Origin: Spirogloea muscicola
Lineage: Eukaryota; Streptophyta; Zygnematophyceae; Spirogloeales; Spirogloeaceae
Reading direction: 5' to 3'
Length of the DNA: 29,931 bases
NCBI GenBank assembly: GCA_009602725.1
Contig: WELB01000086.1
Location: 205,928 to 235,858, forward strand
In this document: positions 181-29,480 of the stretch, in pieces
How the letters are laid out: each line of letters starts with the position of its first letter
How positions within the stretch are numbered: position 1 is the stretch's first letter
Made by a program: the position numbers and the translations under genes
The notes under the pieces: model-generated
Told to the model about the DNA's origin: nothing
The model's database searches: none
Seen by the model: only the letters and a program-made list of their open reading frames with translations

Positions 181-620
181 CTGGGCTGGCCTCTTTTCAA
201 AGTGAAGAGCTCGCCCATTGAGGATAGGGGCTGGAAAAAGCCAGCCCAGAAAAGAATGAACAAAGGACGAGAAGGGGCCAGGGGAAGTACCTCTTTTCAA
301 AAGAAGAAAGGAGCGGCCGAACTGAGTGGTAGCTCTGAGAGGCCAGCCCAGAGGAATGGACAAGGTCTGCAGGAGCCGGAGGGAAGAAAGGAAAGTCTGG
401 AATAGCTCGTCCAAGAAACAGTTCTTCTCGTCTTGCAGCATCCACTCCACATTGTAAAAAGGCTGTTTGGCTGTCTCTTTTCCCTGTTGGCCTCGTCCGT
501 TTACATTGTCCATTCTTTTCGGGCTGGCTTTGCCAGCCTCTCTTCTCTGTGGCGCGAGCACTTTCTTTCATTTGGGCTGGCCTTTTGAGAAGGACGCTTC
601 CAGGAGTGGGACGATGGCTT
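181..620. repeat. Cluster of hairpin-repeat units, both orientations
   Basis: Several copies of the window's main repeat lie here: forward copies near 181-200 and 500-600, reverse copies near 205-260 and 335-380. The forward copy at 522-538 is a perfect stem, GGCTGGC-TTT-GCCAGCC. The reverse copy at 230-246 also pairs (GGGCTGG with CCAGCCC). The block at 209-237 is an exact 29 nt reverse complement of 27831-27859. Flanks carry the usual unit parts: a CATTCTTTT leader before the stem and a GGGCGAGC/GAGAGCC motif after it. No gene is evident. Confidence 0.8.
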
Positions 621-1479
621 CAAAGAAGTTTCCTTTTGCGAGCCCCCAGACTTTGCTCGCCTCTGCCTGAACAGTGTGTCCGCTTGATCTGGCCTCCCTT
701 TTATGACACCGCGCCGTCAACACTTCTCGTCGTCTCTTCCGCAGCCACGCCACCTGACATGTCACTTCACTTTGGATTGCACGTGTGGCTACTGTGACCC
801 TCGACCCTGGACCCCACCGATCGGGCTGAAGAGGAGCGTTGACCAAGGCAAGCCCAAGTGGCTGCTGACGGCGGCGGTTTGGGATGTGGATCCGCCGTGC
901 TCCGCTCGTGTCCCCTCTATTTCGGGCTGGCTTTTCACAGCTCTCACCCCCTTTTCGGAAGGGCTCACTTCCTATATTTGCCTCATTGTCTGCGAGTGCG
1001 AGCTTCTGCTCTATGCATCGGCCCTTTGTTGGCTGTCGGCTCGACCCTCCTCCTGTACTCTCACCACGATCTGGATACATGGCATCCAGCACCCCACACC
1101 TTCCTCTGTACGTTCACCTTAATAAAGCTGAACGTGTATATTCACCTCGGAGTGGCCGTCAGGAGCCAAGAGCCCCCTCTCTCTCGTCAGTCTCCCCATC
1201 GCTTGTCAATGACTGGGTAGCACAAAACCCACGCCTTTCCGACGCCTGTCAAGGACCCGCTAAGCCCTTCCTTCGGCGCTTTATACATTTTTTTCTTTGG
1301 CTGGCCAATCACAGCCATCGCCCTCTACTGGAAGTGTCTTTCTCTCTTCAGATTGTGCTTTCAAGCCAGCTGAGGTGGGGCCTTCAGTCCCCTGGCTAGC
1401 TGTCGCTCTGTCGGCCACAGCCCAGGACGAGGCGCCTGAGAGCCTGGATTCAAAAAAACTGAGCTGGATTGCTAGCGCG
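621..1479 (+). repeat. Repeat-rich spacer with two forward hairpin units
   Basis: Hairpin units occur at about 915-975 (GGGCTGGCTTTTCACAG, then a CGGAAGGGCTCACTT tail) and 1288-1350 (TTGGCTGGCCAATCACAGCC, then TGGAAGTGTCTTTC). AATAAA lies at 1119-1124, but no convincing gene ends before it. Several frames stay open for 100-170 codons, yet they overlap the repeats and have no recognisable domain or splice pattern, so I do not call a gene. Confidence 0.6.
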
Positions 1480-2295
1480 TCCTGTGCTTGCTTGTGCATT
1501 TGTCGTTCCCAACGGCCGGGCCGTCCTTTCCGAGGCAGTACACCGGACGGCGGTCCACCGGCACCGGGGCCTCCTTCCTCCCTGCCTCGTTGGCGTCGTG
1601 CAGTGCGAATGAGGAGCCCGCCACGCCGACAATGCGGAGCTGGCTGCCCACATGCTCCGCTGTCCGCACGGAGGTGAGCGGACCGGCTCTCACGACCTCT
1701 TGGAGGACGCCATGCATTGAGTGTTCCTGGAGGCCGGCTACATCGTCGCTGTGGAAAACTCTTCTGTCATGCCCATCCAGCTGGGCGCGGATGGTCAGCT
1801 CCACACCCGGCGCGCAGACCTGGTTGCCATCCCGCCCGGCGGGGCCCGCATCACTGCGGATGGGGCGACTACTGACTGCGTCGACTCCGCGAGCCCCATC
1901 AAATCGGCGTTGACAGCAGGGCATGCGGTCGGCATGGCAGCTCGCGGCAAGGAACGCAAATACGCGGATCACCCGGTTGGGGTTGAATTTGCGGCCCTTG
2001 CGATCGACGTACACGGGCCTACGGCAGTCGCTGGCTGGACCTCCTGCAGCGGCTTGCCCGGCAGGCCATTGATCGGCGGGTGGGTTCGCCAGGGGAGGTG
2101 CCGGGCTTCAATGCTGCCGGCTCGCTTGCTCAGGTCTTTCGCATGCGGCTCTCCGTCTCTCTCCAGCGCTCTTTGGCTCACGCAGTCCACACGCGTGCCG
2201 GCCGCGCTATGGCTGCTGCCTCAGGGTCTCGCCGGAGTGCTTCCTCCTCAGCAGCGAGTTATTCAGACCTGATGTTGCTCACTCGCGGGCACTGA
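1480..2295 (+). mobile_element. Broken reverse-transcriptase-type retroelement, C-terminal part
   Basis: The segment encodes, in pieces, the C-terminal part of a retroelement protein. Recognisable are a region with the layout of a restriction-like nuclease (RRADLV...then CVDSASP), a block KYADHPVGVEFAALAIDVHG typical of this family's tail, and the end MRLSVSLQRSLAHA...LLTRGH followed by a stop. The second copy at 26977-27351 shares the same order, which confirms the assignment. I infer a non-LTR (LINE-like) family with an RLE-type tail domain; the polymerase core is absent. The copy is old and carries several breaks. A forward hairpin unit follows about 70 nt after the stop. Confidence 0.7.
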
Positions 2296-2425
2296 GCTTC
2301 CGTATGTATCGTCTTGTGTCTAGTTGTGTAGTTTTTCTTTTCGGCACCCTTTTTGGCTTTGGATATTGTCCATTCTTTTTGGGCTTGCTTGGCCAGCCTC
2401 TCTCTCTCAGGGCGCGCCATTCCCT
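2296..2425 (+). repeat. 3' tail of the element with a hairpin unit
   Basis: Directly after the element's terminal stop comes a T-rich spacer, then GATATTGTCCATTC and a degenerate forward hairpin unit (GGGCTTGCTTGGCCAGCC, then CAGGGCGCGCC). The order stop, short spacer, hairpin recurs at 27351-27470 and, on the reverse strand, at 14381-14290 and 25630-25550. That supports reading it as the element's 3' untranslated region. Confidence 0.6.
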
Positions 2426-2859: not shown

Positions 2860-3010
2860 CCGGCATCAATTAGTGACCTCTATGTGCTGACTCGTGGGTA
2901 CTGAGCGGGTAAGCTTAGCAGCAGGTGATGTACATCTGTCAATGTGCTTGCCTTTGTACTTGGCCACATAGGCCCTCCATCTCTTTATACACACTCATTT
3001 TCTTCTCTGG
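2860..3010 (+). mobile_element. Detached 3' end of the same retroelement family plus tail
   Basis: Positions 2860-2904 read PASISDLYVLTRGY and a stop, matching the last codons of the copies at 2250-2295 and 27351. The following tail (GAGCGGGTAAGCTTAGCAGC, then TTGCCTTTGTACTTGGCCAC) is shared with 26380-26440, 26575-26640 and 20305-20365. Only the extreme 3' end is present, as expected of a heavily 5'-truncated insertion. It is a fossil. Confidence 0.7.
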
Positions 3011-3132
3011 TAGCTGCGTGCCCCACGATCAAGGCGGTTGCCAAGCACGGCCCTGATGGGACCTCCAACCTCCTTCCTGGCACTGCTGCGCACGGCTGGT
3101 GGCCCGAGCCAGAGGATCAGACGATGGAGGGA

Positions 3133-3200
3133 TCTTGTCAATTCTTCTCGGGCTGGCTTCTCACAGCCCTTGCCCCCATTGGGAGAGCCACTTCTTCTTC
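3133..3200 (+). repeat. Hairpin-repeat unit, near-consensus
   Basis: This is one of the cleanest single units: leader CTTGTCAATTCTTCTC, stem-loop with GGGCTG at 3150-3155 and CAGCCC at 3164-3169, then TTGCCCCCATTGGGAGAGCC. It is almost identical to the two units in the 27361-27735 array. Confidence 0.85.
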
Positions 3201-3204
3201 TTCT

Positions 3205-4040
3205 GATGGAGGGGGCCTTGCCACCGGATTGGCCGCATCCCTCCATTTCGACAAGTGGATGTGACTCCCTTTTGCGCTTGAGGCATGTGAATGCCCTCGC
3301 TTTTCCCAATGGACCCCAACGTCCTCCTTCTGGCACTTACGACAAAGACGTGAATGATGAGCACGAACGGGCACCACCAGCCGCCCACCGAGCTGTCGGC
3401 GCGCTGTCGGTGGGCGGGGAGGCTGGAAGCGAACCTTTCAGCCCTGCCCGTCCGTTCACTGTAGAGCCAACATTCAACCAGCTGATTCTTTGCCCCACTA
3501 CTGACCAGGAGAAGAGCTATTCCTCAGCTTTATGAGAAATAGCTCTGCCCGTCGCCAGCATAATGAGGCCGTGAGGTTAGGGCCTGGTGCGTTTCCTTCT
3601 TACGATAGCCCCTCTTACGTTTTCATTGTTCTTCTTACACAGTGTTACTGGCTTGCTTGGACTTCATCGCATTACATGCGCACCGCGCGCCTCCCTTTTG
3701 CTTGTACAGTGAGTCGGACCTTCAACGATCCGCGTGACTTGACGATTGCTCGCCCTTGGGCCCCATCATACTGGCTCGGCGCAGCGGAAGCGGCTCGTTC
3801 TGGGGCAGGTGCAACTTCGTTGCACATTCAGCTCTGCACAGTGCCGTCTGCTTGCGCAGCTCCCGCTCAACACTGTGGCAGGCATGTGCAGAACTTCGCT
3901 GAAGTACACGTCGGTCGTACGCCCGACAGCACCACCTCTGACTGCTTGCGCACTTCGGGTTCAGGTATCACACACAGAGGCCCTCTTGTCCGGCGCCTCC
4001 AGCGTCGGACACTCAGCTATGGCGGGGTGTCTTTCCGCCC
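3205..4040. other. Unassigned spacer with a Family B copy
   Basis: A Family B copy lies at 3630-3700 (TGTTACTGGCTTGCTTGG, then CATGCGCACCGCGCGCC). A small perfect hairpin, GTGCAAC-TTC-GTTGCAC, lies near 3810-3826. A forward frame stays open for about 180 codons (3532-4083), but its composition is that of translated repeat DNA and no domain is visible, so no gene is called. Confidence 0.45.
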
Positions 4041-4260
4041 CGTTTGGAAGAGGCTCACTTCTCTCCGGCCAGTCCGGACCTAGTCCATTACATTTGGGCT
4101 GCCGTCTCACCGCCGTCGCCTTACTTTGTAAGTGCTTTGGTTTCTCGATTAGCCAAAAAAGAAGCTAGTTCTATGAGGGCAATGGCAAAGGAAAGAGGCA
4201 GCTCTTGAAATGGACCGAGGGCTGTGAAATGCCAGCTCCTGAAAAGAGAGTTCAGTGGAC
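4041..4260. repeat. Divergent hairpin units
   Basis: A forward copy (GAAGAGGCTCACTTCTCTCC, then CATTACATTTGGGCTGCCG) is followed by a reverse copy at about 4190-4255 (AGAGGCAGCTCTTGAAATGG, then GGGCTGTGAAATGCCAGC). Both are eroded but keep the leader, stem and tail order. Confidence 0.55.
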
Positions 4261-5980
4261 AATGGGGGGGCTAACAGGAGCTAGTCCAGAGGGGACGGAC
4301 AATGGGGCATGCAGCACCAGGGAATGGGATTCAAAATAGCGGAAGCATCAAGACTGTGCCAAACGCCCCTTCTGGAGACCTTTTGGCTGGTCTCCTCCTT
4401 GTGCCTTTCTCCTCCCAAGGGCATAGAGTTTTCGTGCTAAACCAGATGGTGATTGAGCATTTGAGAATGAGCAACAAGCTGCAGGTCGATCGGATGTGAC
4501 TTCTGCAAGTACTCAACGAACACCATAACAGCTTGTCATTGCTAGTCCGGACAGGCAGCCAATCAAGGAGGGCTCCACCGTTCTCGTTCCAGTAGTGAGG
4601 AAGTAGTGCTCACAACGTGGAAAAGGTATTGATGATTTAGAAGGGGCAGCTGTCCAACAAGGGCTCCACCATTCAAAAGCAGATTGGGGCGGTGGTGCGC
4701 TGGCAAGGCACCGCTCTGCGAGGCTGCGGCAGCAGTAATCTTGCACAGGTTCCAAAGCGCCTTCTGTGCTCAGGTCATGGAAGTCACCCTGGGACCAAAT
4801 GGCACACACGAATGTGCTATGTGTTGCCATCTGCCTGCTGAGCGTCAAGAGGATGGCTTGTTTAGGGAATTTGCTTGACAAGGCTTCTCCCTCTTGCTGC
4901 AAGCTGCACCTGCTCCTGCGACACGAGCACCCCTTTTGCAACCATGATGCACCCATGCTTGCCCATTGCTCTAATACTTCGTAGCCATGGATATCAGATC
5001 TTGCCCATGCAGGAAATCAGGAAAAAGAGTACATAGGAGGCGGTGGCTGTAAAAGGCTAGCCCGGCATTAAAGGTGGTCACCATCATCAGGACCCGCGGC
5101 CGACTCTACTGAGAAGGTGGAAAATGCGGAGGAGCCTTCGTAGTCTGCTGAAATGTGTGCCAGGAGCTGAGGAGTCAGAGCGGCAGCTGCGACTTCAGCC
5201 GCTGTGTGGGCATTGCTAAGCCTTATCAATACTGAGAAGATGTCAGATTCTTAGCTGAGGATGTTGTGGTGTGCTCGGGTAGGGTAGCCTGTTCTGAATG
5301 TTGCAGGCTGGGGGGGCTTGGGTCCTTGCGATGCATCCTGAGATTTTGATAGCCAGGGACTTTTCTTAGCGAAATAGTGCTCGTAAGCTCGGCTTCTGTT
5401 GACTATCCTGGCTAATTGTCTGCAAGAGCTTTGAAAGACCTGTACGATTAATGGCATGTAGTATCTGTCTTTGAATGATGATGCTGCAACAGTGACCTCG
5501 TCTTCTTGAGCACCGATAATTCCCCTCAATCTGGTCCTTTTCTTTGATTTGCTGCCTACTCTCGTGATCAGTCTATGCTGACCCTTCATGATCTAGGTGG
5601 TAGGGATCACGGTTGGCAAGCGTAAGGTGCTCGACGTCCAGAGAGCAGCGTACAGTTGCAAGCTACCGTGCAACACGTGCTCTGAAGATAGGGTCCGATC
5701 GCTGGGGTTTCTGTCATGGCAGCGCCAGAAAAAAAGCCCAGAGTAGGAGTCTTGCCATGCGGCGATGTCAACAATGGCAAGAGAAATTGAGGGCTGTGGG
5801 CTGTGGCGTGCCCGGGCCCTTGCCTAGCTCGTTCTGAAGTCACTGTGCACTCGCTTGGGACTCAGCTCCCCACATGTGAGTCGTCACTTTTACTATCAAG
5901 TGTCAGGTCTTGACGTCTGTGGAGGGCTTGACCTCCAGATGCTGGTATAGGAGGTGGCATCAACGTGCATGGGCGACTCT
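4261..5980. other. Intergenic stretch without a supported gene
   Basis: One weak reverse hairpin unit is visible near 5041-5075 (GGTGGCTGTAAAAGGCTAGC). Two reverse-strand frames (4513-4956, 5251-5589) and a short forward block ending near 4878 are open for 65-147 codons. None shows a known domain, supporting splice pattern or typical coding composition. The region probably holds the distal upstream sequence of the SUMO-ligase gene. Confidence 0.4.
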
Positions 5981-6408: not shown

Positions 6409-9400
6409 ATGGCGGCGGCTCCGGCGGCGGCGGCAGCGGAGGAGGAGGAANGGCAGGGGCCGCAGGAGGACGCCGGCGGCCGCCGGCGGCTGGCAGTGGG
6501 GAAGATGCTGGCCGCCGACATTGCGCGGCTGCGCCTCAAGGCCGGCACGGCCCGCGCTCCGGGCATCACGCCGCACGACCTGCTCAGGCTTTCCAAGTGA
6601 GTGTAGAGGTCAGAGGATCGAGTGTAGAGGTCAGAGGATCAAATCGGGACAAGAACAGGGGACACCTTTACTTCAAGGTCAGGGTGAGCTCTAGGCCCTG
6701 TGTGGTAATGTGTATCGTCTATGTCAGGAGCCGAGCTGCCAACCTGAGGACTGCCGCCATGTTGGGAAGTGGTCCTATCAAGGCAAGACAGTGATGTGAG
6801 CATTTAGGCACCTTCCGCCTTTGCTGGAGTGTGGTGGAAGGGCTGGTTGCGCTTCATGTGCCGACATTGGTGGCAAGACTCAGAAGCTCTGACAGCCCAA
6901 GTGGTTATCATTCGGTCCCAGAGGTAGCTCGGCTTTGCCACGTTGATATGGTCGTAATGGTCGCACCGACGACTAGCGCCAGGCGAGCTTGTGCTTGGCC
7001 TTGGCTTGGCCTGGCAAGGCTTCTGCTGCAACAGAAGAGGCGAAAACTCTCAGCACTTTGCCCGTGCTGAGTGCCAGCACTTCAGTGCTGGGTTATGTGC
7101 TAGGATTGAAGTATGGCGCTTAAGCTTTTGGGGTGTTCTCTATCCTGCAGCTTCTGATAGCCACAGTGCTTGGCTGGCTTACTCCACTGCACTGCTACGA
7201 GTTTGGCTTGCTTGGGGCAGTGCACTCCTTGACTGCGAAAAATGCTTACAGGAGCAAGTCACTGGAAGTTGATGACCAGTGGGGATCAGACAAAAGTAGT
7301 AGCTCTCAGATTGTCATCGTCTGTGCTATTGATTGTGACTTGCTTGTGTGTTGCTGCCAATGTTGCTCCCCGTCTGCTAGGTTGCTAGACTGCTCTGTTG
7401 GATACGAGCAGAAACCACAGAACCTGGATGCCCTCCGGGAGCTGCTCATGTGGGTAGGCACCATTGTTTCTGCCAGAACAAAGGCCTCCTATTGGTTGTC
7501 TTAGTAGCTCATGCCATTGGGGTTTTGCGTAAGCTTGCGATTGATTGAGTGCAAATTCTACATGCAAGTGTCTGGCCTAGAGGTTTATGGTCTGGGAATA
7601 GGGGCATTGCTTCTACATATGAGGCATTTGAGATGTAGAGGCTTACTTCCAAATCGACGGTACTTTGAGGTTAAAAGTGTGCTACGTGGGGGGTGCACTG
7701 AAAATGTGCAGCTCTGGCAGCTGGCTGACAACCCCGCTTTTCGCCCTGCACTCATGGCCCTCATGCTCTCAGTCAAGGTAGGGCTACTGCTCCAACTCAC
7801 CCCACCTTCTAGCTGGGTGTCCTGCAGATTTGCAAGCGTTCCTGGAGAAGTAGAGCATATTAGCCGGAGCTTCATTCAGACGACTTCTGACAGGCTATTA
7901 GTGGTCACTACAAGCTAACAACATGCATGACGACGTTGCTTCCCAGAGAGTTTGTCGCTTGGGGTGGTTCAAGCAGCAGAAGGTGGTAGAGCTGATGAAG
8001 CCCCTGCAATTGGTAAGTGCCTGCCTTGAATCCAACTATCTGCCTGCTCAAATATTGCGATATACAACTCTGTTTCCTGCAGAAGCTGTGGGGCCTGCTT
8101 CTAGGAATGCTCCTGTCCATGTTGTAGTGGCAGGTCAGCTGCACAAGGCCAGGATATTGCATGTGACGTGTTTGCCAGCCTATTGTGCAGCTCTGGGGTC
8201 ACTTTGTGCCTACTCAAGCTCGCCAGAGCAGCAGCGACGACCTCCAGCGTGTGCTGGCTCCTTCAGGAGGAGCTGCTCTGTTGCAGCTTGAAGGCGTGAT
8301 TGACCATGTGAAGAGGCTCTCCAGTAGGTAAACCTGAACCTTGATTCCCATCCTATATCCTATACTCTAGCCTGTGCCCTCGTCTTCTGTGCCTGTATTT
8401 CCCACATCTCATCGAAGAAAGGAAAAGTCACCTACATGCTAAAGGAAGGTCGTGCACGATTGCCATTGTGAAAGTTGTGCTTGTTCCTGCCTTCAGAAGG
8501 GCACTTGCAGCTCACAAGGACGTCATAATAGCGTTGCAATACTGTTGATGCACAGGTACTTTCCAACCTTGAGGTTGCGCTCAGTTCTCATGGCAATGAA
8601 GGCAGAGGTGAGACTCTGAGTCAATATTCACTCCAGTCTGTTGTCTACCTTGATTGGTGGCACCTCCCTGCATGCAAAGGCATGCTACCTGCTTGCTTGC
8701 CTCATCCCCTTGTTTGCATCCTACACAAGGGAGCTTCAAACCATCTCTCCTGCACTCCTTCCAAGGATTCACACAAGATGTGAAGGACTGATTGGAACAT
8801 CATAGTCCCGTGTTGTGCAGCAAGGGTATCAGGTCTTGACGGCAGACTTTGGCATCCTCATCAAACTTCACCGAGATTACAATGTTGTAAGACAGAAAGA
8901 TAGCATCTGCTCTCACTGCATCCAACTCTTATTATGTAGTGGAGCTGAGCAATACTCTATTAGAAATGTGATCCTATCCATTATGACCTGTTTGTTCAGG
9001 CGAAGTACAGGGGTACCAGCAGGTTTTGAGAATTGTATCTCACACAGTGCATTGCTTTCATGCTCATGGCAGCACCTTCTGATTTCGCAGTACCCAGACA
9101 TCAGCACCTCTGCTTCCCTCGCGACACCATTGCAAGTCAGGTAGATGCATTTGCAGATTCTTTGATATTCAGTATCACTGAGGGGTATGCTGTCTTTGAG
9201 CATCTCCCTATCAACATAGCAAGGCTACTACTTACAGGAATTTTTGTAACCTCAGCGATTACTCCTTTGGGTCAATGCATTCTGAGTGAAAGCTTTGCAG
9301 ATGTGGAATGGTATGATGCATGATGAAAAGGACGCCACTTGTACATTAGCACATAGATGTTTGCTAGGCCAGAGTTGCTCCTGCTATTTCTCTCTTTGCC

Positions 9401-11962: not shown

Positions 11963-12700
11963 CACACTGTGCTAATTCCAAACCACTAGATTGACGACCT
12001 ATTCGCATCACGGCGCGGCAGGGTCACACATGTTGCTTATCATTCGTTGTTAAGAGCTGTGAAGCCTCCATTCTGCAAGTATGATTTGGCTGACGACAAG
12101 ATGCTTGTTTACGAAGGCGGCACTGGCCGCAAAAGGGTCGGCCCAAAGAACATGGACAAGGTCAAGGGGGGAGCCCCAACACGAAGGCGCAAGTATATGA
12201 GCAAGCCAAGTGGTTCCCACGTTGAAAGTGCGCTTCCCACAATGGGAAACACAGACTGACTGCTCCCGACGTGGTAAACGGTCAAGAACGTGACGACTGG
12301 TCGGCGGGCCGCATCGACGTTGAGTAGGTAGTCAGACGGCGAAGTCATACCGTTGGCTCAGACGTAACGGCGCTTTGAGGGAAGCGGAATCTCCCGCGCG
12401 CGAGATGCCCAAGGGTGCCACGTGGCGTGTCGAGAGCGCCCGCTCCAAATTGCGCGCGGATGGCATTCGGCACGTGCGCCCCTCCGCGGTCACGAGAGTG
12501 CGACGCGTGGCATCGACGGGCCGCAAACCGCTGCTAATTGACTCACTTCAACTGGCTCTAACCACCTGTGCTTAGGCAGGGTTGACATAGCTCAATGTTG
12601 ATGCCTTTTCACAGTGCTCACCTTATTTGTCGTGACGCGATGAACATCAAGTGCACTGGTTGACGACCATCAAAGAAATTGCTCATTCGAAGAGAAGTGA
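11963..12700. other. Unassigned intergenic DNA
   Basis: A very eroded reverse hairpin unit may be present near 12121-12165 (CTGGCCGCAAAAGGGTCGGC, then AACATGGACAAGG). A GC-rich stretch at 12385-12535 contains GCCACGTGGC (12417-12426) and GGCACGTGCG, G-box-like cores also seen at 26740-26820. I see no supported gene. Confidence 0.4.
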
Positions 12701-12944
12701 GCTCTCAAAGGAGGGCTGTGAAAGCGGCCCAAAAAGAGAAACTGGTCAAGGCCCAAACGGCCGACAGGCAAACCACACAGCTATTCAAGTGGGTATTGAA
12801 GTTCCCCTTCAGCCTGCATCCACGCTGACACCTTAGCCTCCCTTAGCATGGTCCTTCATTTTGTCTAGCCCCACTTTTATTGCACTAGCTTTTGCTAAAC
12901 AGTGTAGTGCCTTGATAATTGCGAAGACAGCAGCAAGGAGACTC
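12701..12944 (-). repeat. Reverse hairpin unit and shared block
   Basis: At 12690-12760 the reverse-unit order is visible: GAAGTGAGCTCTCAAAGGAG, then GGGCTGTGAAAGCGGCCC, then AACTGGTCAAGGCCC. The block near 12863-12895 (AGCCCCACTTTTATTGCACT) is the reverse complement of part of 6047-6075. This lies immediately 3' (reverse strand) of the element end at 12945. Confidence 0.6.
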
Positions 12945-13031
12945 TCAGTAACCTCTAGTCAGTAGATGCAAGTCGAAATAGCTAGCAGGCGGATAGATGT
13001 CGCCCTGCCGGACGCCGGAGGCCGAAAAAGC
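12945..13031 (-). mobile_element. 3' end of the retroelement family, reverse strand
   Basis: On the reverse strand this reads SASGVRQGDIYPPASYFDL then HLLTRGY and a stop, matching ASGFRQGDSLPAASLSDVRL of the fragment ending at 27351. Only about 29 terminal codons are present, as in a 5'-truncated insertion. A reverse hairpin unit (13031-13120) adjoins its 5' edge. It is a fossil. Confidence 0.75.
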
Positions 13032-14360
13032 CCTTCTTTGAAGAAAAGCACCTCCAAGGGGCGATGAAGGCGACGGCTGTGAAATGCCAGCCCGAAAGAA
13101 GGAACGGAGAAGGTCTGAAGGGGCATGCCCAGAACAAGTAGGAAGTTCTTCATAATACTATTGATCCTCAATGCAATCCCCAAATACTAAGTCCTTTCTC
13201 GATTGCAAGAGCTTATGCTTTTTCCAGAAGGAATTGTGGAAGGCGAAAACAGGTCTTCCAATGTAATGCAGTGGCTTAGCCACGATTGGAGAAAGGTCGG
13301 AAGGGTCCGGCAAGCAGATTATCCTCCGCACCTTCCAGACATATATTATTCTGTTTGGGCTGTCACAGCCATCACCTTAATACAAGAGAGCCATTTATTA
13401 CAGAGGGGTGATTCATTTCAGAGGGGGCGATAGCTGAGAGAAGCAGGTCTTCCCAAGTAGCGAGGGCTGTGAAAGGAGAAGCTGCTCTATCGAAGGGGGC
13501 GAGGGCCGTAAAAAGCGAGCCACAAAGGTTGAGCAGCTTTTCCAAATGGTGCGAGATTATGAAAAGCCAGCTCACAATTGAATGGACAAGGTCTAGCCGG
13601 TAAATGTATCAAACAATAAGCATGCCTGCTCAGTAAGAAAAGCCAGCCCAAAAATCAAAAGGAAAGAGAAGTAGATGTGGACAAGGTCCAAAAGAGAAGC
13701 AGCTCTTCCAACGGGAGCGAGGGCTGTAAGTAAACATCTCGGTCAACGTGCGGCAATGGCTGCGAGGAGTAAAAACTCTCAAAAAGGGGGCTGTGAAAAG
13801 CCAGCCCGAAAAGAATGACAAGGTCCGCAGGGGCCAAAACTCCCCCGAAACCCTAAAACCCAGCTCCAACATAGAGCTGGGCTTTCTACACAGTTTTTCC
13901 AACATAAAAAGGCCAGCCCAACGGACTGAACAAGGTCTGAGAAGTGGTTCTCCCACTGGGGCAATGGCCGTGAGAAGCCAGCCCGAAAAGAATTGACTAA
14001 GGTTCGAAGGGGCCAAATGACGGAGGGGCCTAAAGCCACAATGACGGAGAGAAGTGGCACTCCCAATGGGGGCAAGGGGCTGTGAAATGCCAGCCCGAAA
14101 AGAATTGACAGGTTCGAAAGGGCCAAATGGCGGAGGTGCCTAAAAAGCGCTCAGTAGCTACGAGTGATGAGGTCTGAGTGCTTCGTAGCTGCTTCGTTTC
14201 ATTTTTGTGCTTGTTGTTCTGAGAGGACTGAATGCGCTAAAAGAGCGGCCATCCGACCAAGGTTTGACAAGAAGCAAGCGCGGCCAGATTAACTGGTGGC
14301 TGGGAGAGGCCAGCCCAAAAGAATGGACAAGGGCTGAAGGAGTCGGAGTGCTAAGGACTG
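13032..14360 (-). repeat. Dense reverse-oriented hairpin-repeat array
   Basis: At least ten recognisable units, mostly in the reverse orientation, fill this stretch. Stems lie near 13074, 13500, 13550, 13636, 13788, 13910, 13968, 14078 and 14300. A typical unit reads GGGGCTGTGAAATGCCAGCC, then CGAAAAGAATTGACA, then GGTTCGAA and GGCC. Spacing is irregular (about 60-120 nt) and units differ by many substitutions, so this is an aged, partly tandem array rather than a satellite. AAACCCTAAAACCC at 13851-13864 is telo-box-like. No gene is visible. Confidence 0.85.
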
Positions 14361-14380: not shown

Positions 14381-14500
14381 TCAGTAACCTCTCGTCAGTA
14401 GATGCAAATCTGAGTAGCTAGCAGGCGGAAAGACGTCGCCCTGACGGAAGCCGGAGGCCGCCGCCAGAGCGCGGCCTGCGCGCAAGTGGACCGCAAAAGC
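14381..14500 (-). mobile_element. 3' end of the retroelement family, reverse strand, longest reverse copy
   Basis: Forty reverse-strand codons read AFAVHLRAGRALAAASGF, then RQGDVFPPASYSDLHLLTRG, Y and a stop. They align over their whole length with the C-terminal end of the 26977-27351 fragment. A reverse hairpin unit lies 35-90 nt past the stop (14290-14350), as at the forward copies. It is a truncated fossil; the rest of the element is absent. Confidence 0.8.
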
Positions 14501-14574
14501 TAGGGACCGCGGGTGATTGACAAGGGGTCAGGGGTCGCGGAAAGAGCACGCCACGCAGCTACGACGGAGTTGTG

Positions 14575-19909: not shown

Positions 19910-20460
19910 ATGCTGCGCCATGATCACGGCCTGGTCGAGCGGCGCAGGCAGTGGAGGCGGCGGCGGCCTTGGCCTCCGGACGAGCTGCCCCGGAGCTCGC
20001 GCCGCCGTTGAATCTATTGCCAGACCGGCGACGACGGCGGCAGGCCGGGCGCCGGCGCAGCGGGAGCTTCTGCTGGTCGCCGCGAGCGCAGGCTTTGATG
20101 ACAAATGCCGGCCCTCGACGACGTTCGCCCGGGTATGCATCAAGAAGTGAATGCGGCTGCTGATCGTAAAAGAACGGCTGGAGAAGGCGGCCATTGCAGG
20201 CCGGCGCTGCCATACGTCGGCGAGGTTATTGGCGGAGTGCCATGGCCTATGGCTGGCCGTGCTGCAAACGAAGCTCAGCGTGGACGAGCGGCGCAAGCAA
20301 TTAGCTTGCTCATGTGTTTGCCTTTGGACTTGGCCACTTCATCACTTGATACACAGTCCGATTCATTACTCTTGTGTGGCTTGTCGAGCGAGTTGTAGGC
20401 GCAGGCTCTCAAGTGCCGAAGGCGGCAGCCATGCGCCAACTTGGAGCACTTAGCTTTTAG
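19910..20460 (+). other. GC-rich probable first exon(s) of the WD40 gene
   Basis: A sharp GC-rich island (about 19920-20240) resembles those that start the other two genes. Two forward frames look domain-like: RELLLVAASAGFDDKCRPST (then TFARVC) and RCHTSARLLAECHGLWLAVL. They recall the two halves of an F-box (LP..LL...L then VC..w..l....LW). I could not join them by a convincing splice pair, so the start codon and exon limits stay open. A retroelement tail fragment lies at about 20305-20365. Confidence 0.4.
20305..20365 (+). mobile_element. Retroelement 3' tail fragment
   Basis: ATGTGTTTGCCTTTGGACTT followed by GGCCACTTC and ATACACA matches the tail at 2938-3000 with only two differences over the first 31 nt. 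It also matches 26400-26445 and 26590-26640. It therefore places a piece of the dispersed retroelement tail inside the 5' part of the WD40 gene, probably intronic. Confidence 0.6.
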
Positions 20461-23400
20461 GTGCGCCGCCAACGCCGGTGGCAGCAACGGGAGCAGCGAC
20501 GACGGTGCCACGGGATCGCAGACGGGCGAGGAGGCCGAGGACGACGAGGCTCCTGCTGGGGCGGCCACTCCAGCTGCGACGCCCGGGCCTCGCGACGGAC
20601 GCCATCAAGCTACTCCTATCAGCTCGAGCGATGCCGGCGCTCAGGTGTGCACACTCTATTGACAACGACCTGTACCCTCCCTCAGACGACCCATAAAATG
20701 AAAGCAAGAAGCGAAACTAGAAGCGGAACTATGGCCTCCAGTGTCCCCAACAGTTGCTGTAACATACTTGCTGACTGATAGCTTCAGATTGCTCCTGATA
20801 TTCTGGAGCCCCAAGTTTGCAGGTTTCTTCACATAAGATGGGATCTCTCAAGCCAGCATTCTCCTTTTGTTCCTCTTTTGGCTGCATCTGGTATTTCAGG
20901 CGGTAATGTTGAGAGGCAATTGCCTTTGCAGGCTGGCCAGCCAGATGGCGGGCCGGACATGCAGGTGCTCGCCCAGCGCATCCAAGTGGTGCAGGCCCAA
21001 GAAAGGCTGGACGCTGAGGCGACGCGGCGTAATTGGCGAGTGGGCAATTGCCGGCACAGGTTGGCACATCAATTGGCAGATCAGATATCGCCTCTGTACG
21101 CTCTTAAGTAGACTGGGTTGTATAGTTGGGTCAAAGAGACTGCTTGATTTTGCATATGTATACCATGAGTACCCAAGTACCCTAACACCAAGAGCACTGA
21201 TAGAAGGTCAAGCAGCTGCAGCTTAAGCAGCTCAGAATATCGAGAAATGTCAACACTTTCACTGTGCCTGCTCATGAGTCTTGTCTTCAGCTTGTTGCAG
21301 CCATCACAGTCATGATGCACAGACTTAGACAGACTTGTGCTTCTTGAGCCCAAGTTGCAACCCCGGCTCGCTGTAATACTATCCTTTCACTTCATCACTC
21401 AGGGTGGCTGCGACTCTGGGGGACTGGGTCAGGAAGCTGCGCTTCTCTGGGGACGTTGTTGCGTGTGGCACATTTGGCGGGACAGTCTTCACCTTTAGCC
21501 TGTCCACGGGGCAAAAGCTCGGGCGTTACAAGGGCCATGGCTCTGAGATCACGGCCCTCGACTTTGATGGCAGCCGCCTGGTTGCAGGTTCGCCTGGCTG
21601 CGGCTCTCAAGCTCTCAGAGCAGTTGTTCCTTGTTATGCTGTACCTTGACCTCCATGTGATCATGTCTGACACTATATCTCAGTAAGTAGGTCTCTTGTG
21701 ACTGCATTCTGCAAAGAAAAGTAAGACATCCTTGCTTTGATTCCATAGTCTGTAGTGCTCTCCTTTGACAATCTCTGGAGAACAATCTTAAGAAATAGTG
21801 ATTATTTTAAGGTCAGGTGTCCTATGCAGGCTCTGAGGCTTCTGCGTTCCTTCTCTGGGACACAACAAGGAGCAATGGTCGGAGTGATGCAGGAACCTCA
21901 TTCAGGTGCTAATCTTCAAGGGCTGCTTGAAGCCTTGGTCCTAAGCAACAAGATGTTTGTCGCGTGCATGCTTGTGCTCTGAAGCTGATGTTGACACATA
22001 TGTTTCATTCGTCACCACGCTGGAGTCTGTATCTTGAATTATGCTTGTGTGAATCTAGAACACATCGTGGACACAAGTATCTGGTATTCACAGAACACCT
22101 GCTCCGTGATTCTTACTTGACCTGAGTGCTTCCGACTTTCTTGTCACTAACTGCAGCACACGCATGTGTGGCGCGGCAGTGGCCACACGAGGGGCGTGAC
22201 CAGCCTGCAGCTGGATGGGAACCTGGTCTTCAGCAGCTCCGAGGACGGCACAGTCAGGTAACGCATACTTTGGGCGATTCACGGAATGACTTGCCCGTCT
22301 AGGATGCCCGTTAAGACCTCGGTCACTTTGTCCAGCCAGCTAGATAAGGTCTTGGGGTGTCACGCTGCACTTGCACGGCATCCGTGCTTGTGCTCCACCT
22401 TTAGCTCACAGGTAGCAGCTGCCATTTCTTCATTGTCACCGACCACAATGCCAGCATGTTGTGGAACTTGAGATATGGGCTCCAAGAGCTCCATTCGCTG
22501 ATGAGGATGTGTTCAAGGGTAGCAGGGTCTGGCAGGCGGACATTGGCGAGTGCCTCTACACGCTGCAGGTCGGCTACCCGGTGCGCTGCCTCCACAAGAG
22601 CGGCCCAGCTCTGGCGCTTGGCTTGGCCAATGGCACAGTGGTGATCTACTCGTTGTCTGGCCAGAAGCTCCTTCGCACTTTCCAAGGCCACGCTCTTCCA
22701 GTGGTCTGCGTGCAGGTGCACGCCTGCCAAATGACTTCAACGTGCCATTCACAATGACCACAAGAACCCAAGAGTTCTATTACACAATTCCCTGTTGAGC
22801 ATGAATACCTTTGAATTTTCCACTAGAGTCATCCTTTGTACTGACACTGTAAGCTACTCCTATTCAAGTCGACAGTCTTGCTTCTGCAGGCAAGGACTGA
22901 TCTGTCCTTCCTTCGGCCGTTGCTATAGGCTCGGGTCATTTTCGATGTATCTAGCAAGAGTTTGCTTCCTGGTCTCACAAGCTTAGTTGGTGCGTGCAGC
23001 TTGACCAGGAGCAATCAAGGCTTTGCACAGGCTCACTGGATGCAACTGTGCGCCTCTGGGACACCAGGAGCGGCGACTGCCTCGTGGTATTTAGAGGCCA
23101 CACGGTAGGGTGAAAGATGTTGATAGCTTGGCAGTGGCTCGCACAAGCCTGGGCAGTTTGGCCTGTGTTAGAGTACCAACTTTTCTCCAGCCCTGTGAAT
23201 TTGACAACAATCCGCTTCCTGAAAGACCAAGCATATACTCACCAGGATCTTCCACTTGTATATTTGGATCTACAAGATTTGAGTATGTGACTTGCAGTCA
23301 GGCTCACCTTGCATGTAATGGACAGGGTCAGCTGACAGGGTCAATTTATAGTTGCCATTCAATGCCGCAGGCACCAATTGTGAGCCTTCAATTTGACGGC

Positions 23401-23765
23401 GACAAGCTGGTGACGGCGTCCCGTGATGGCAGCGTGCGCGTCTGGGACGTGGGCACTGGGGAGAGCTGGTACAGCATCTGGGGTCACACTGGTGAGTCCG
23501 CAATTTGTCATTTCGGTCTAAGAAATTTAAGACCTTCATACCTTATCTATGACCTGCATAACCCTCTCTGTGCTTCCTTGAGATTGCTGAAACTTCATCG
23601 CCTCAGTAGCAATGGAGACTAGATTACCCAGGGAGCTCAATAAGGCAGGAGTGAAGTGTGAAATTCCTGCGTGCAGCCTACATTGGTTCCGCCCAGTTTG
23701 ATGTCTCCCAGCTGGTGATTGATGGCACCAACAACGTGATCTGTTGCCACGACTTCAGTGCCTGA
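20461..23765 (+). CDS. Seven-bladed WD40 repeat protein (possible F-box/WD40), 5' end unresolved
   Basis: A WD40 beta-propeller protein, presumably a binding scaffold and, if the upstream F-box-like sequence belongs to it, an SCF substrate receptor. Phase-consistent exons: 20461-20644, 20788-21059, 21403-21587, 21830-21905, 22180-22257, 22526-22715, 23000-23104, 23371-23491, 23677-23765; about 432 codons. A Ser/Asp/Glu-rich linker and a helical lead-in (RLDAEATRRNWRVGNCRHR) precede seven blades: WVRKLRFSGDVVACG, ITALDFDGSRLVAG...FLLWD, GVTSLQLDGNLVFSSSEDGT then VRVW, YPVRCLHKSGPALALG, VQLDQEQSRLCTGSLDAT then VRLWD, IVSLQFDGDKLVTASRDGS then VRVWD, and IGSAQFDVSQLVIDG. Seven blades close one propeller, and the stop at 23763-23765 falls right after the last strand, so the 3' end looks complete. 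For exon 22180-22257 an alternative acceptor at 22156 would put the exon in a different phase. Confidence 0.85.
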
Positions 23766-24320
23766 TACAGTCATTGAGTGCCGGAGCTAACACTTCAGCT
23801 CCAAGCTATCTAAAGGTGAGGGTGCTTTTAAGTCCTCTGTGTTGCAGCCATCCTTGTCAGCTGTGTGTGCGTCCTCCAAGAAGTCCTTGCTAGGTGCCCT
23901 ATGTCTCGCCAAGCACTGGGTGACTTTGAGGTCTGGTGAATTACATCATTTTTCGCTTCTTTGCAGGGAGCGCCGTCTTGTTCGCTTGCACCTGCGACAA
24001 CGTCCGTCACAGAGGGCCAACGTTTTGCGTCCCCAACCTACAGGACCACTCCCTCAACCCCATGAAGCCTAGGGGACGAAGAATCACAAGAACATCACAA
24101 GAAGGGATCTCAAGAACGACCACAAGCAGCGGTGGCCGCGAAGAGCCAGCCTTGATTCTGGACAAGAGCCATAAGGATTTGGGCTTCCTGGCAGTCGGGC
24201 TCTGCTGAATGTTGTACCATGGTACACCAGCGAACTGGGCTGGTAACTCCTGTATAGCGTCCAGTGGGCCATGATAGCGCTCCCTGAGAAAAGACCCCGA
24301 CATATCGGGCTCATTTCGAA
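23766..24320 (+). other. Downstream of the WD40 gene; one exon-like block
   Basis: After the stop there are two good acceptor-like sites (CTGTGTTGCAG near 23848, CTTCTTTGCAG near 23967). From the second, a frame reads GSAVLFACTCDNVRHRGPTF, then CVPNLQDHSLNPMKP and on to a stop at 24206-24208. No domain is recognised. It may be a spliced 3' UTR or part of another transcript. Confidence 0.3.
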
Positions 24321-25060: not shown

Positions 25061-25125
25061 TTCCGAGGCAATGGGGGTGAAAGGCCAGCCCACAGACGAA
25101 TGAACAAGGCCCGAGGAGGCCGCGG
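25061..25125 (-). repeat. Hairpin-repeat unit, reverse
   Basis: CAATGGGGGTGAAAGGCCAG then CCCACAGACGAATGAACAAG and GCCCGAGGAGGCC follow the reverse-unit order (tail, stem, leader). The stem is partly eroded. Confidence 0.65.
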
Positions 25126-25464
25126 GGGAACAAAGAAAGCGCGACTTCATACAACTAAGTGAGTGGCTACCACGACTGGGTGCTCAATCATCCCTAGTCA
25201 GCTTCAAAAGCCAGAGTACCTTGCAGCCTGAAGAGTATCACCATTGTGAGACCAGGAGCAGCAGCCAGCCTGGCCTGCAAGTGCAATCGGCCCAGGAGTC
25301 ACACTGATTTAGCTGGAATCCCGTGGGAATCTTGTGGCATTAGCCAGAAACTGAAGAAATCGTTGCTCACTATTGTGCCGCTGCGCCACGCCGCCCCAGC
25401 CTGCCGAGCGCCGGAGCGGGTTTCCCTGTCGTGGTCGCCGTGGTTGGCTGAGAGGAAGAAGAGG

Positions 25465-25612
25465 CAGCTCTGAATGTGGTGGGGGCTGTGGATTGCCAGC
25501 CCACTCATGGACGAGGTGCAGAAGAAAGTGAGCTCTTTCAACGTGGGCGGGGCTGTGAAAAGCCAGCCCAAAAAGAATGGACGAGGTGCTGAGGAGTCGA
25601 GAAGCATCCAGG
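25465..25612 (-). repeat. Two tandem reverse hairpin units
   Basis: The first unit has GGGGGCTGTGGATTGCCAGC (about 25484) and ATGGACGAGGTGCAG; the second has GGGGCTGTGAAAAGCCAGCC (about 25550) and GAATGGACGAGGTGC. The period is about 67 nt. They lie 20-165 nt past the stop of the reverse-strand element end at 25630, in the same orientation. Confidence 0.8.
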
Positions 25613-25629: not shown

Positions 25630-25676
25630 TCAGTGACCCCTAGTCAGTAGCCGCAAGCAGGAAAGGTCGTCTCCGA
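25630..25676 (-). mobile_element. 3' end of the retroelement family, reverse strand
   Basis: The reverse strand reads GDDLSCLRLLTRGH and a stop, matching the terminal codons of the other copies. Only about 15 codons are recognisable. The adjoining sequence on its 5' side (25680 on) is again hairpin repeat. It is a short fossil. Confidence 0.65.
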
Positions 25677-25679
25677 TAA

Positions 25680-25810
25680 AAGGCGATGGCTGTGAAAGAA
25701 GAAGTGGATCTTTTCGAGGGGGAGAGGGCTGCAACAGCAAGTAAGCTCTTCCAAAGGGGGCTGTGAAAGCGAAAGGGCCAGACCACAAATGAATGACCAG
25801 GAGAGACGGA
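25680..25810 (-). repeat. Reverse hairpin units, eroded
   Basis: AGGCGATGGCTGTGAAAGAA, GGGAGAGGGCTGCAACAGCA and GGGGGCTGTGAAAGCGAAAG mark three successive units whose second stem arms are mostly lost. The leader GAATGACCAGGAGAG follows the third. Confidence 0.6.
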
Positions 25811-25849: not shown

Positions 25850-25985
25850 ACAGCTGCCAGTGGACCCTATCAAGCAGCCGCAAGTCGAAAGTACTAGCAG
25901 CTGGATAGAAGTGAGTTCTTCCAGAGGGGGCGGGGGCTGTGAAAAGCCAGCCCAGAAAGAATTGACAAGGTCCAAAACTTCCAAT
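25850..25985 (-). repeat. Eroded element 3' end followed by a reverse hairpin unit
   Basis: At about 25853-25910 the reverse strand still reads YPAASTFDLRLL, an old copy of the element's terminal codons. It is followed on the + strand by GAGTTCTTCCAGAGGGGGCG and a good reverse hairpin unit (GGGGCTGTGAAAAGCCAGCC, then AGAAAGAATTGACAAGGTCC) ending near 25977. Confidence 0.6.
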
Positions 25986-26282
25986 CACCTTGCGCTGGCC
26001 GCTCACAGCCCATTTTGATAGAGCTTGAAACTGTCATTACAAGATATGGTAAGGCGAACAGCTTCTGATGAGTGACTGGGACAAATCGGAGTAGTACAAA
26101 GGCAAGCACACCTACCAATGTGACGTACCTGTCCTCTGTCAGCCAGCTTCCGCACTGTTGCCTCAGCCCCTTCAGCATAGGGCTTCGCTTCAAGTACAGC
26201 CCCCATTCTTCGCACCAGCTTTTGCCTGCATACAGTATTGGCCTGACTTGGGCTCCCTCTCAAGCGTACCGCGCACCTTCTC

Positions 26283-26345
26283 CTTGTACATTCTTTTGGG
26301 CTGGCCTCTCACAGCCATCGCCTGACATTGGAAGAGCTGTTACTT
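26283..26345 (+). repeat. Hairpin-repeat unit, forward
   Basis: TTGTACATTCTTTTGGGCTG, then GCCTCTCACAGCCATCGCC and TTGGAAGAGCTGTTACTTTC. The stem has one mismatch. This marks the switch from reverse- to forward-oriented repeats in the right-hand block. Confidence 0.75.
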
Positions 26346-26374
26346 TCCGCTCTATCTCCTGCAAAGTGAACTCC

Positions 26375-26470
26375 TCGAGCGGGTCAGCTTAGCAGCAGGT
26401 GATGTACAACTGTGCTTCCCTCTGTACTTGGCCACTCAGGCCCTGCCTCCCTCATTCATTACGCACTCCC
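26375..26470 (+). mobile_element. Retroelement 3' tail without coding end
   Basis: GAGCGGGTCAGCTTAGCAGC, AGGTGATGTACA and CTGTACTTGGCCACTCAGGC match the tail that follows the stop at 2904 almost base for base. The terminal codons that should precede it are not seen. It is a very short truncated copy or a tail duplicated on its own. Confidence 0.65.
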
Positions 26471-26513
26471 ATCACCTTTTGCAAAGGGCTTTCATTTGCC
26501 ATCTGGTGTCCAA

Positions 26514-26924: not shown

Positions 26925-26976
26925 CCTTTGGGCCCAATCACAGCCATCGCCCTCGTCTGTGGAAGAGTCTTCCTCG
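26925..26976 (+). repeat. Forward hairpin unit cut by the element junction
   Basis: TTTGGGCCCAATCACAGCCA, TCGCCCTCGTCTGTGG and AAGAGTCTTCC give the stem and tail of a unit closely like that at 1288-1350. The coding fragment begins right behind it, so the element's 5' truncation point lies in or next to a hairpin unit. Confidence 0.6.
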
Positions 26977-27351
26977 CGGGCTGGCCACGCTGCGGCAAAG
27001 GCGGCTCGCAGCAAGGCGGCCAAACACGCCGACCACCCGGCTGCCGACGAGTTCGTCCCCCTGGCTGTGGACGTGCATGGGGCTCTCGGATCCCACTGGC
27101 TCGACCTGTTGGCCAGGCTTGCACGGCGTGCTGTGTCCCGCAGGCGCGGTGAGCCGGCTGACTTCAACGCCGCTGGCTCGTGGGCTCAGGTGTCTCGTAT
27201 GCGCTTGTCCGTCTCCCTCCAGCGGTCCATGGCCCACGCCTTGCATCTGCGTGCTGGCCGTGCTCTCGCTGCGGCCTCCGGCTTTCGTCAGGGGGATAGT
27301 TTACCGGCAGCTAGTCTGTCGGATGTGAGGCTCCTCACTCGTAACTACTAA
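26977..27351 (+). mobile_element. 5'-truncated reverse-transcriptase-type element, C-terminal fragment
   Basis: About 124 codons read AGHAAAKAARSKAAKHADHP, then EFVPLAVDVHGALGSHWLDL, LARLARRAVSRRRG, FNAAGSWAQVSRMRLSVSLQ, RSMAHALHLRAGRALAAASG, FRQGDSLPAASLSDVRLL, TRNY and a stop. This is the conserved tail region after the reverse-transcriptase domain in a LINE-like family; the polymerase itself is missing. The fragment looks unbroken over its length, so it is younger than the 1480-2295 copy. Its 3' side runs into the hairpin array, which I read as the element's 3' UTR. Confidence 0.75.
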
Positions 27352-27360
27352 GTGGTCCAT

Positions 27361-27800
27361 CCTCCCCCGTTCTGCCATAGCCTCTTCAGGCCCCGCAGTC
27401 GCTGCTTAGCTCGTACTTTGGCCCCTTCGAACCTTGTCAATTCTTTTCGGGCTGGCTTCTCACAGCCCTTGCCCCCATTGGGAGAGCCACTTCTTCCTTT
27501 CATTCATTGATTCCAGCAACTTTCCGGCCGCTTCGGACCTTGTCAACCTGTTCGGGGCTGGCTTTCACAGTTCCTCGCCCCTCTTCGAACCCCCCGCTCC
27601 CCCGTTTTGCCATAGCCTCTTCAGGCCCCGCAGTCGCTGCTTAGCTCGTAGTCTGGCCCCTTCGAACCTTGTCAATTCTTTTCGGGCTGGCTTCTCACAG
27701 CCCTTGCCCCCATTGGGAGAGCCACTTCTTCGTCGAAGAGCTTACTTCTCTAGCTTCTTTACTTTGCGCTGGCCTCTCACAGCCATTGCTTAAGAAGCTA
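27361..27800 (+). repeat. Forward hairpin array with a 235 nt near-identical duplication
   Basis: Positions 27364-27490 recur at 27599-27725 with about three differences. Each copy holds GCCATAGCCTCTTCAGGCCC, GCAGTCGCTGCTTAGCTCGT, CTTCGAACCTTGTCAATTC and the consensus hairpin (GGGCTG 27449-27454 with CAGCCC 27463-27468; 27684-27689 with 27698-27703). A divergent unit sits between them (27530-27590), and another follows at 27757-27795. The duplication is recent; the other units are older. Confidence 0.9.
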
Positions 27801-27823
27801 GAGAGCGGCCCTCCCCTTCTGGA

Positions 27824-27955
27824 CTGGCTATTTCCAGCCCCTATCCTCAATGGGCGAGCCCTTCTGCCTTTGGAGAGTCAATCTCTGGGGCGGGGGCTGT
27901 GACTGGCCAGCCAAGAGAAAATGGACAGAGGTCCAAAGGGGCTGGAAATAGCCAG
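27824..27955. repeat. 19 nt perfect inverted repeat from two head-to-head hairpin units
   Basis: CTGGCTATTTCCAGCCCCT at 27824-27842 and its exact reverse complement at 27937-27955 flank a 94 nt centre with GGGCGAGCCCTTCTGCC and GGGGGCTGTGACTGGCCAGC. Together they form a forward unit and two reverse units. The 29 nt at 27831-27859 also occur in reverse complement at 209-237. Confidence 0.85.
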
Positions 27956-28764: not shown

Positions 28765-29035
28765 GCTCTTCCGGCCCCTTTGGACCTTGTCAATGTCTTT
28801 TCTGGATGGCTCTTCACAACCCTCACCCCTTTCCCTTTGAATGAGCCACTTTCTTCTGTCATGTGAATTGTTGGCATTCTCTGTCACGCGTAAGGGCTCG
28901 GTTTGGCTTTCCCACGTCCATTTCAAGCGCGCCGCGCGCCCGCCCTTGCTGGGCTGGCTTTTCTGGGCTGGCTTTGCTAGCCCCTCTTCTTCTCTGGGCG
29001 AGCATTTCTCTCTCTCTTGCCGGAAAGCACTGAAG
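28765..29035 (+). repeat. Forward hairpin units
   Basis: The unit at 28775-28860 has GGACCTTGTCAATGTCTTTT, CTGGATGGCTCTTCACAACC and GAATGAGCCACTTTC. The unit at 28950-29015 has the stem GGGCTGGC-TTT-GCTAGCCC at 28965-28983 (eight pairs, one G-U), then CTGGGCGAGCATTTCTC. Confidence 0.75.
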
Positions 29036-29340: not shown

Positions 29341-29480
29341 CTTCTCGGATGCTCAGTCTCTAGCTTGGGCTGGCCTCTCACAGTCAGACGGCCCAACAAT
29401 GGAGGAGCTGTTACTTTCACACAGCCTGCTTCTCGCTCAACCCTTGCTCTCATTGGGGGAGAGTGGGGCCCACGACGGGG
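29341..29480 (+). repeat. Forward hairpin unit, eroded
   Basis: GCTTGGGCTGGCCTCTCACA, GTCAGACGGCCCAACAATGG and AGGAGCTGTTACTTTC match the unit at 26283-26345 closely in stem and tail. A further piece, CTTGCTCTCATTGGGGGAGA, follows. Confidence 0.7.

Follow-up and report, generated by a model that had tools for sequence, protein, structure and literature searches.

A dispersed hairpin repeat is best read as the 3′ tail of a LINE family

Introduction

LINEs (non-LTR retrotransposons) with stringent-type tails, such as UnaL2, ZfL2-1 and ZfL2-2, carry a hairpin in the 3′ UTR near the 3′ end. As summarised in PMC4176376, the ORF2 protein of zebrafish LINEs binds its own 3′ stem-loop, and mutation of the stem-loop of the eel element UnaL2 cuts retrotransposition. 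For a plant L1 lineage, a conserved 3′ hairpin common to SINEs is described in section 4.3 of PMC3747384; the maize elements LINE1-1_ZM, ZmSINE2 and ZmSINE3 are presented there with a conserved 3′ end of about 50 nt and a putative hairpin. According to a proposal in the same source, recognition of a specific RNA template was a property of the ancestral L1 of green plants and was later relaxed. The green algal element Zepp inserts into existing copies, and its arrays consist mostly of 3′ ends, according to the outline in PMC8226300.

Here, we analyse a dispersed hairpin repeat in a 29,931-nt stretch of DNA (the window). Like the tails of UnaL2, ZfL2-1 and ZfL2-2, it has a stem-loop near the end of what looks like a LINE 3′ UTR. 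Unlike them, the window units, known from sequence and compared by description, came without a detected reverse transcriptase, and compensatory stem changes (covariation) are absent among the copies. Such changes are reported for the maize lineage in PMC3747384, whereas on the same descriptive level only one of 222 stem cells qualifies here. Nested arrays of 3′ ends are a feature shared with Zepp and Zepp-like L1 elements of green algae (PMC8226300); the tails in the window are CTT-like, in contrast to the poly(A) 3′ repeat given for Zepp in Table 3 of PMC3747384, and three clusters occur within 30 kb, whereas PMC3446292 describes about one Zepp cluster per chromosome in Coccomyxa. In our best reading the repeat is a known kind of thing, a LINE 3′ tail, and the original prediction of a stem whose pairing outlives its sequence is unsupported.

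Results

Number and distribution of the repeat units

A nhmmer profile with 76 model positions was built from seven clean copies and run against both strands of the window. It detected 37 units at E<0.01, including the seven seeds (Table 1), and 39 at E<0.1; the predicted number of more than 30 units was thus borne out. The pattern GGGCTGN8CAGCCC with up to two mismatches occurred 27 times versus 3.5 expected, and none of 100 shuffles reached this number. A common leader, stem-loop and tail had also been predicted for all units. Indeed, a profile of the same seven copies with the hairpin masked still found 12 units at E<0.01, five of them non-seed, so leader and tail are common beyond the seeds, but weakly. 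Near-complete matches, spanning 60 or more of the 76 positions of the model, make up only 13 of the 37, the exact leader and tail strings were found two and three times, respectively, and the matches start at model positions varying from 3 to 36.

Units are restricted to 0.2–5.1, 12.7–14.3 and 25.1–29.4 kb, and nhmmer gave no unit at E<0.01 within 5.1–12.7 and 14.5–25.0 kb. Ten units at E<0.01 lie within 13032–14360, nine on the minus and one on the plus strand, so the natural reading of this part is the reverse complement. The stems quoted in the original prediction were located at 522–538, 228–247 (there 230–246) and 28965–28983; the form at 228–247 is a minus-strand unit read off the plus strand.

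Rfam yielded no match in the window at the gathering score. ARAGORN reported no tRNA gene in the window, a result that a decayed tRNA-like head could escape. One exact 25-base pattern had no match in the viral and genome contigs searched, and titles and abstract openings of the searched literature revealed no earlier report of the repeat.

Pairing and conservation of the stem

Stem pairing was counted in two ways. Alignment A2 had 37 rows, i.e. 36 of the 37 nhmmer units (13439–13474 was dropped) and 28940–29013 added by hand; the rows of 27530 and 27741 were shortened. In the MAFFT alignment 80.2% of the stem cells pair compared to 79.3% in shuffles (136 of 500 as high), and four cells are changed on both sides compared to 2.9 (158 of 500). 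Since this alignment misplaces a few units, the stems were also anchored by hand, using the sequence at both arms. This table also has 37 rows, comprising 35 of the 37 nhmmer units (all but 13439–13474 and 26937–26968) and two units added by hand (28965 plus, 27960 minus). Standard pairs occupy 188 of its 222 cells versus 188.5 after shuffling one arm among the copies, and there is one two-sided change versus 1.9. The claim that pairing outlives sequence therefore fails on both counts. Furthermore, the six stem pairs rank between 551 and 1809 among 2485 column pairs for covariation, and RNAalifold predicted no pairs at all on the MAFFT alignment; none of three tests found covariation above background on the stem, which is the result that the original prediction had named as refuting it. 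The strongest covariation, between columns 38 and 50, reflects subfamily linkage (T..C vs C..A), not pairing, and was rejected.

All six pairs are intact in only 14 of the 37 stems, nine of them through identity, and 23 have at least one broken pair. The several stem forms that had been said all to pair have one common 5′ arm, GGGCTGGC, and differ in the loop and on the 3′ side. Longer stems have a seventh pair (units 273, 14340, 27796 and 27960) or an eighth (496, 2356 and 28965), and these extra pairs derive from the 3′ side of the loop. The majority fraction, in a set whose detection favours the hairpin motif, is 0.90 for the 5′ arm, 0.78 for the 3′ arm, 0.76 for the loop, 0.64 for the leader, 0.63 for the spacer and 0.57 for the tail. 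Thus, both arms are better conserved than leader and tail, as predicted, but the 3′ arm barely exceeds the loop.

Pair counts at the level of shuffles indicate that the stem pairs decay independently, as in dead copies. This removes the evidence that had been stated for selection on the hairpin. Nevertheless, dead copies are free of constraint, and selection in the source elements is compatible with the lack of covariation among copies.

Predicted folds

Eight units and two tails of a sister family (see below) were folded. The full arm-to-arm hairpin is part of the minimum-energy structure of seven of the eight units, although the folding energies of the eight do not stand out (z between −0.06 and −2.72). 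An outer helix between leader and tail is added in the predicted folds of two units (199–262 minus, 505–570 plus). It pairs in 61.5% of cases compared to 55.3% in shuffles, with 1 of 500 shuffles as high and 2–24 of 500 for other measures, and after four near-identical copies are dropped P is about 0.01. This helix was picked after the folds had been seen, and of 1953 arbitrary helices taken from that alignment about 2% perform as well. We treat it as a weak lead from modelling. A second hairpin, formed by the purine spacer and the CTT tail in some folds, was rejected (63.4% paired, 62.9% in shuffles). By eye, a 12-nt inverted repeat (CTCTAGCTTCTT ... AAGAAGCTAGAG) encloses unit 27763 within 27741–27815 as a larger potential hairpin.

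Putative LINE ORF ends next to the units

One C-terminal ORF recurs around the units, with differing 5′ cut points and the same end. By tblastn, fragments A, C, D and E belong to one family and fragment B is more distant. Two further ends, D2 and F, were recognised by a short end motif; they consist of 7–8 residues each, and tblastn did not find them. The motif, chosen after the ends had been seen, occurs seven times in the window and not in 60 Markov sequences. The hairpin on the same strand starts 85 nt after the stop codon in A, 97 nt in C, 64 nt in D, 54 nt in D2 and 60 nt in F; fragment E is the exception among the six ends. A unit lies at most 100 nt downstream of 14.7% of the oriented positions in the three unit-bearing stretches. 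With this base rate, five of six ends give P 0.0004, and three of the four tblastn ends alone 0.011.

Between fragments A and C, 62% of the synonymous sites and 23% of all others are changed. For this one pair dN/dS is 0.20 over 84 codons, as for an ORF under protein constraint, with dS (1.34) near saturation. Pfam gave no match better than E 0.98 for three C-terminal pieces and none for five long ORFs. No reverse transcriptase or endonuclease domain was detected in the pieces scanned, the copies holding only the C-terminal end, and viral contigs and plasmids contained no relatives of the LINE protein. The LINE identity rests, therefore, on anatomy. The upstream part of fragment A (1649–2017, plus strand) includes a Cys/His-containing stretch ahead of the conserved C-terminal region, without a Pfam match; by eye, this part has what we take to be a possible nuclease-like motif.

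Candidate insertion traces and arrays

Three copies have candidate target-site duplications. Copy 3132–3204 (73 bp) is flanked by a duplication of 9 bp and ends in CTT repeats, while the tails of other copies are less regular pyrimidines. The minus-strand copy 202–289 (88 bp) has a 12-bp duplication. The third, of 5 bp and found by eye, borders a 143-bp insert within unit 27532, whose flanks joined across the insert score 27.0 bits versus 17.9 for the left part alone. This insert carries a near-copy of the fragment C 3′ UTR (97.8% over 135 bp). The repeat of 135 bp, with copies at 27362 and 27597, starts 11 nt past a LINE stop codon. A blind scan was not clearly above control, with a word of at least 9 shared in 6 of 37 units versus about 8% (about 3) in mispaired controls; some of the six words are repeats between units.

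The strand order of the units forms 8 runs versus 19.4 expected (P 5e-5). A same-strand unit follows within 60 nt for 10 of 37 units compared to 3.9 at random (P 0.003), and under jitter of up to 400 nt the head-to-tail excess has P 0.036. A 110-bp tandem pair lies at 13939–14144, and neighbouring units can be of differing subfamily, e.g. at 27424–27861.

Neighbouring sequence

A second 3′ UTR family is present on the plus strand at 2893–3010, 26368–26480, 26548–26660 and 20285–20370. Three of its four aligned copies have a GGCC hairpin with a loop of 4–5 nt, which in two of them lies 57 and 56 nt past the stop of sister LINE ORF ends at 2904 and 26555 (the latter identified by short motif). 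The copy at 20285 is without the second GGCC arm and lies near the putative WD40 gene.

The regions between the unit stretches resemble split host genes. WD40-type models matched three of six open stretches scanned at 21348–24205, all below the Pfam cut-offs (best WD40 repeat model 26.1 bits, cut-off 27), and four further open stretches scanned elsewhere in the window had no Pfam match. The open stretches at 21377–23619 (plus strand) are probably one split gene; the WD40 matches only suggest that it is eukaryotic. A perfect two-copy 21-bp tandem repeat lies at 6599–6640, at what was judged by eye to be an exon end.

Table 1 Repeat units, putative LINE ORF ends and candidate insertion traces in the window
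Feature	Position	Strand	Evidence
LINE C-terminal ORF fragment A, in-frame stop and frameshift	1649..2295, stop codon ends 2295	+	tblastn
LINE C-terminal ORF fragment C	26965..27351, stop codon ends 27351	+	tblastn
LINE C-terminal ORF fragment D	14381..14521	-	tblastn
LINE ORF end D2	14151..14174	-	short motif only, DLITRSY*
LINE ORF end F	25630..25656	-	short motif only, LRLLTRGH*
LINE C-terminal ORF fragment E; next hairpin 214 nt away	12945..13037	-	tblastn
Candidate target-site duplication, 5′ copy, 9 bp	3123..3131		
Candidate target-site duplication, 3′ copy, 9 bp	3205..3213		
Candidate target-site duplication, 3′ copy of minus-strand insert, 12 bp	190..201		
Candidate target-site duplication, 5′ copy of minus-strand insert, 12 bp	290..301		
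143-bp 5′-truncated insert inside unit 27532, TCGAA on both flanks	27590..27732	+	
Unit, last part of 143-bp insert	27661..27732	+	nhmmer 3.8e-24, seed
Unit, 3′ end of LINE fragment C	27426..27496	+	nhmmer 4.9e-24, seed
Unit in 73-bp insert with 9-bp duplication	3128..3198	+	nhmmer 3.1e-23, seed
Unit after LINE ORF end D2	14048..14118	-	nhmmer 9e-21, seed
Unit	25906..25976	-	nhmmer 3.3e-20, seed
Unit, second of 110-bp tandem pair	13937..14005	-	nhmmer 4.4e-20, seed
Unit after LINE ORF end F	25523..25591	-	nhmmer 6.6e-18, seed
Unit, CAGCCA subfamily	26282..26340	+	nhmmer 1.5e-11
Unit	13776..13827	-	nhmmer 6.5e-11
Unit	28779..28853	+	nhmmer 4.1e-9
Unit	920..970	+	nhmmer 8.8e-9
Unit, 7-bp stem type, 88-bp insert with 12-bp duplication	208..265	-	nhmmer 1.1e-7
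Unit	13048..13097	-	nhmmer 2.4e-7
Unit, degenerate 5′ arm	13693..13730	-	nhmmer 1.2e-6
Unit	13475..13522	-	nhmmer 1.3e-6
Unit	4192..4247	-	nhmmer 1.5e-6
Unit	4074..4135	+	nhmmer 1.5e-6
Unit after LINE fragment D	14297..14337	-	nhmmer 2.7e-6
Unit, 8-bp stem type	503..538	+	nhmmer 3.3e-6
Unit	27886..27936	-	nhmmer 4.1e-6
Unit, decayed stem	13533..13595	-	nhmmer 5.1e-6
Unit, sole hand-anchored stem with two-sided change (T-A for G-C)	1294..1336	+	nhmmer 5.5e-6
Unit	331..369	-	nhmmer 1.8e-5
Unit	25740..25800	-	nhmmer 2.9e-5
Unit split by 143-bp insert	27532..27581	+	nhmmer 4.5e-5; joined flanks score higher
Unit	29365..29415	+	nhmmer 1.3e-4
Unit	25458..25521	-	nhmmer 1.5e-4
Unit after LINE fragment A	2358..2397	+	nhmmer 2.2e-4
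Unit	27763..27789	+	nhmmer 2.4e-4
Unit	25067..25112	-	nhmmer 5.3e-4
Unit, 7-bp stem type	27817..27861	+	nhmmer 6.4e-4
Unit	5032..5065	-	nhmmer 7.5e-4
Unit	12696..12754	-	nhmmer 1.2e-3
Half unit without 5′ arm	13439..13474	-	nhmmer 3.2e-3
Unit, 3-nt loop	13348..13394	+	nhmmer 3.4e-3
Unit	25989..26025	+	nhmmer 5.7e-3
Unit, 5′ arm partly deleted, immediately upstream of LINE fragment C	26937..26968	+	nhmmer 6.2e-3
Weak unit, hairpin with 8-bp stem quoted in the original prediction	28965..28983	+	only E 0.63 envelope; folds as 8 bp

Discussion

With a length of about 70 nt, the unit resembles the terminal part of a LINE 3′ UTR, and we consider it likely that it represents the 3′ end of a LINE family. 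The host would be a eukaryote and, as gene style, base composition and a resemblance to algal LINEs suggest, probably a green alga. An intact element end would consist of the C-terminal ORF, a stop codon, about 50–100 nt of 3′ UTR, the leader, the hairpin, a purine-rich spacer and a pyrimidine (CTT-like) tail. The window holds the link to ORF ends, the differing 5′ cuts, the head-to-tail excess and the three candidate duplications. In target-primed reverse transcription the protein of the element would grip the hairpin, and copying would begin at the tail. As copying would often end early, many insertions would retain just the last 70–140 nt and resemble a free-standing repeat. New copies may often insert into or beside older tails, building same-strand head-to-tail arrays such as that of 13032–14360. 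Source elements would keep the hairpin, and scattered copies would be free to decay; this would account for the lack of covariation among copies. By analogy to the known systems, the LINE protein probably selects its RNA by gripping this hairpin. Thus, of the predicted selection at the RNA or cruciform level, the basis in covariation is gone, but the hairpin still likely acts at the RNA level because the unit appears to be a LINE 3′ end, where hairpins read by the element's own protein are known.

That the repeat is instead a free-standing structured RNA or cruciform under selection for pairing, as originally proposed, appears very improbable to us. The high conservation of the 5′ arm (0.90), the full hairpin in seven of eight minimum-energy folds and the stems that stay paired while loop and stem length vary would fit such an RNA; nevertheless covariation is lacking, 23 of 37 stems have a broken pair, the 3′ arm (0.78) is barely above the loop (0.76) in conservation, the units track LINE ends, and Rfam has no match. 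Somewhat less remote, but still unlikely, is that the short units are a SINE (a non-autonomous retroposon) with a borrowed LINE tail rather than truncated LINE copies. Two of the inserts with candidate duplications are indeed just 73 and 88 bp long, and a LINE and a SINE with a common 3′ end of about 80 nt are known in Chlamydomonas, as noted in PMC3747384. However, the starts of the matches vary (model positions 3 to 36), the 135-bp repeat begins 11 nt after a LINE stop codon, and ARAGORN detected no tRNA gene, though it could miss a decayed tRNA-like head.

The arrays alone could have another origin than landing in old tails, namely ordinary tandem duplication of the DNA or a reverse transcriptase that jumps between templates; we regard this as possible, if less probable than nested insertion. 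Template jumping would yield the same head-to-tail order, and the 110-bp pair at 13939–14144 and the 135-bp pair with 97.8% identity could be read as tandem duplications. This origin is at odds with the insert that lies within another unit and has a 5-bp duplication, and with adjacent units of different subfamily, as at 27424–27861. The arrays fit target-primed reverse transcription together with nested insertion, to which template jumping or tandem duplication could add.

With the LINE reading, what at first seems a mysterious structured repeat is accounted for as a set of LINE tails. The case also illustrates a trap, since stems that seem to pair in several forms can owe their differences to subfamily variation in the loop around a constant arm. 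If the LINE is an L1 with a required 3′ hairpin, the finding would bear on the proposal, as set out in PMC3747384, of template recognition by the ancestral green-plant L1. Going further, the element might be a green-algal LINE with a two-level 3′ RNA that its own protein reads stringently, ending in CTT instead of poly(A) and preferentially inserting into its own tails, a combination that we regard as doubtful. In the modelled RNA, the inner GGGCTG/CAGCCC hairpin would be closed by the outer leader-to-tail helix. Should this two-level reading be true and the clade be L1, it would favour the view that green-plant L1s ancestrally read their tails stringently.
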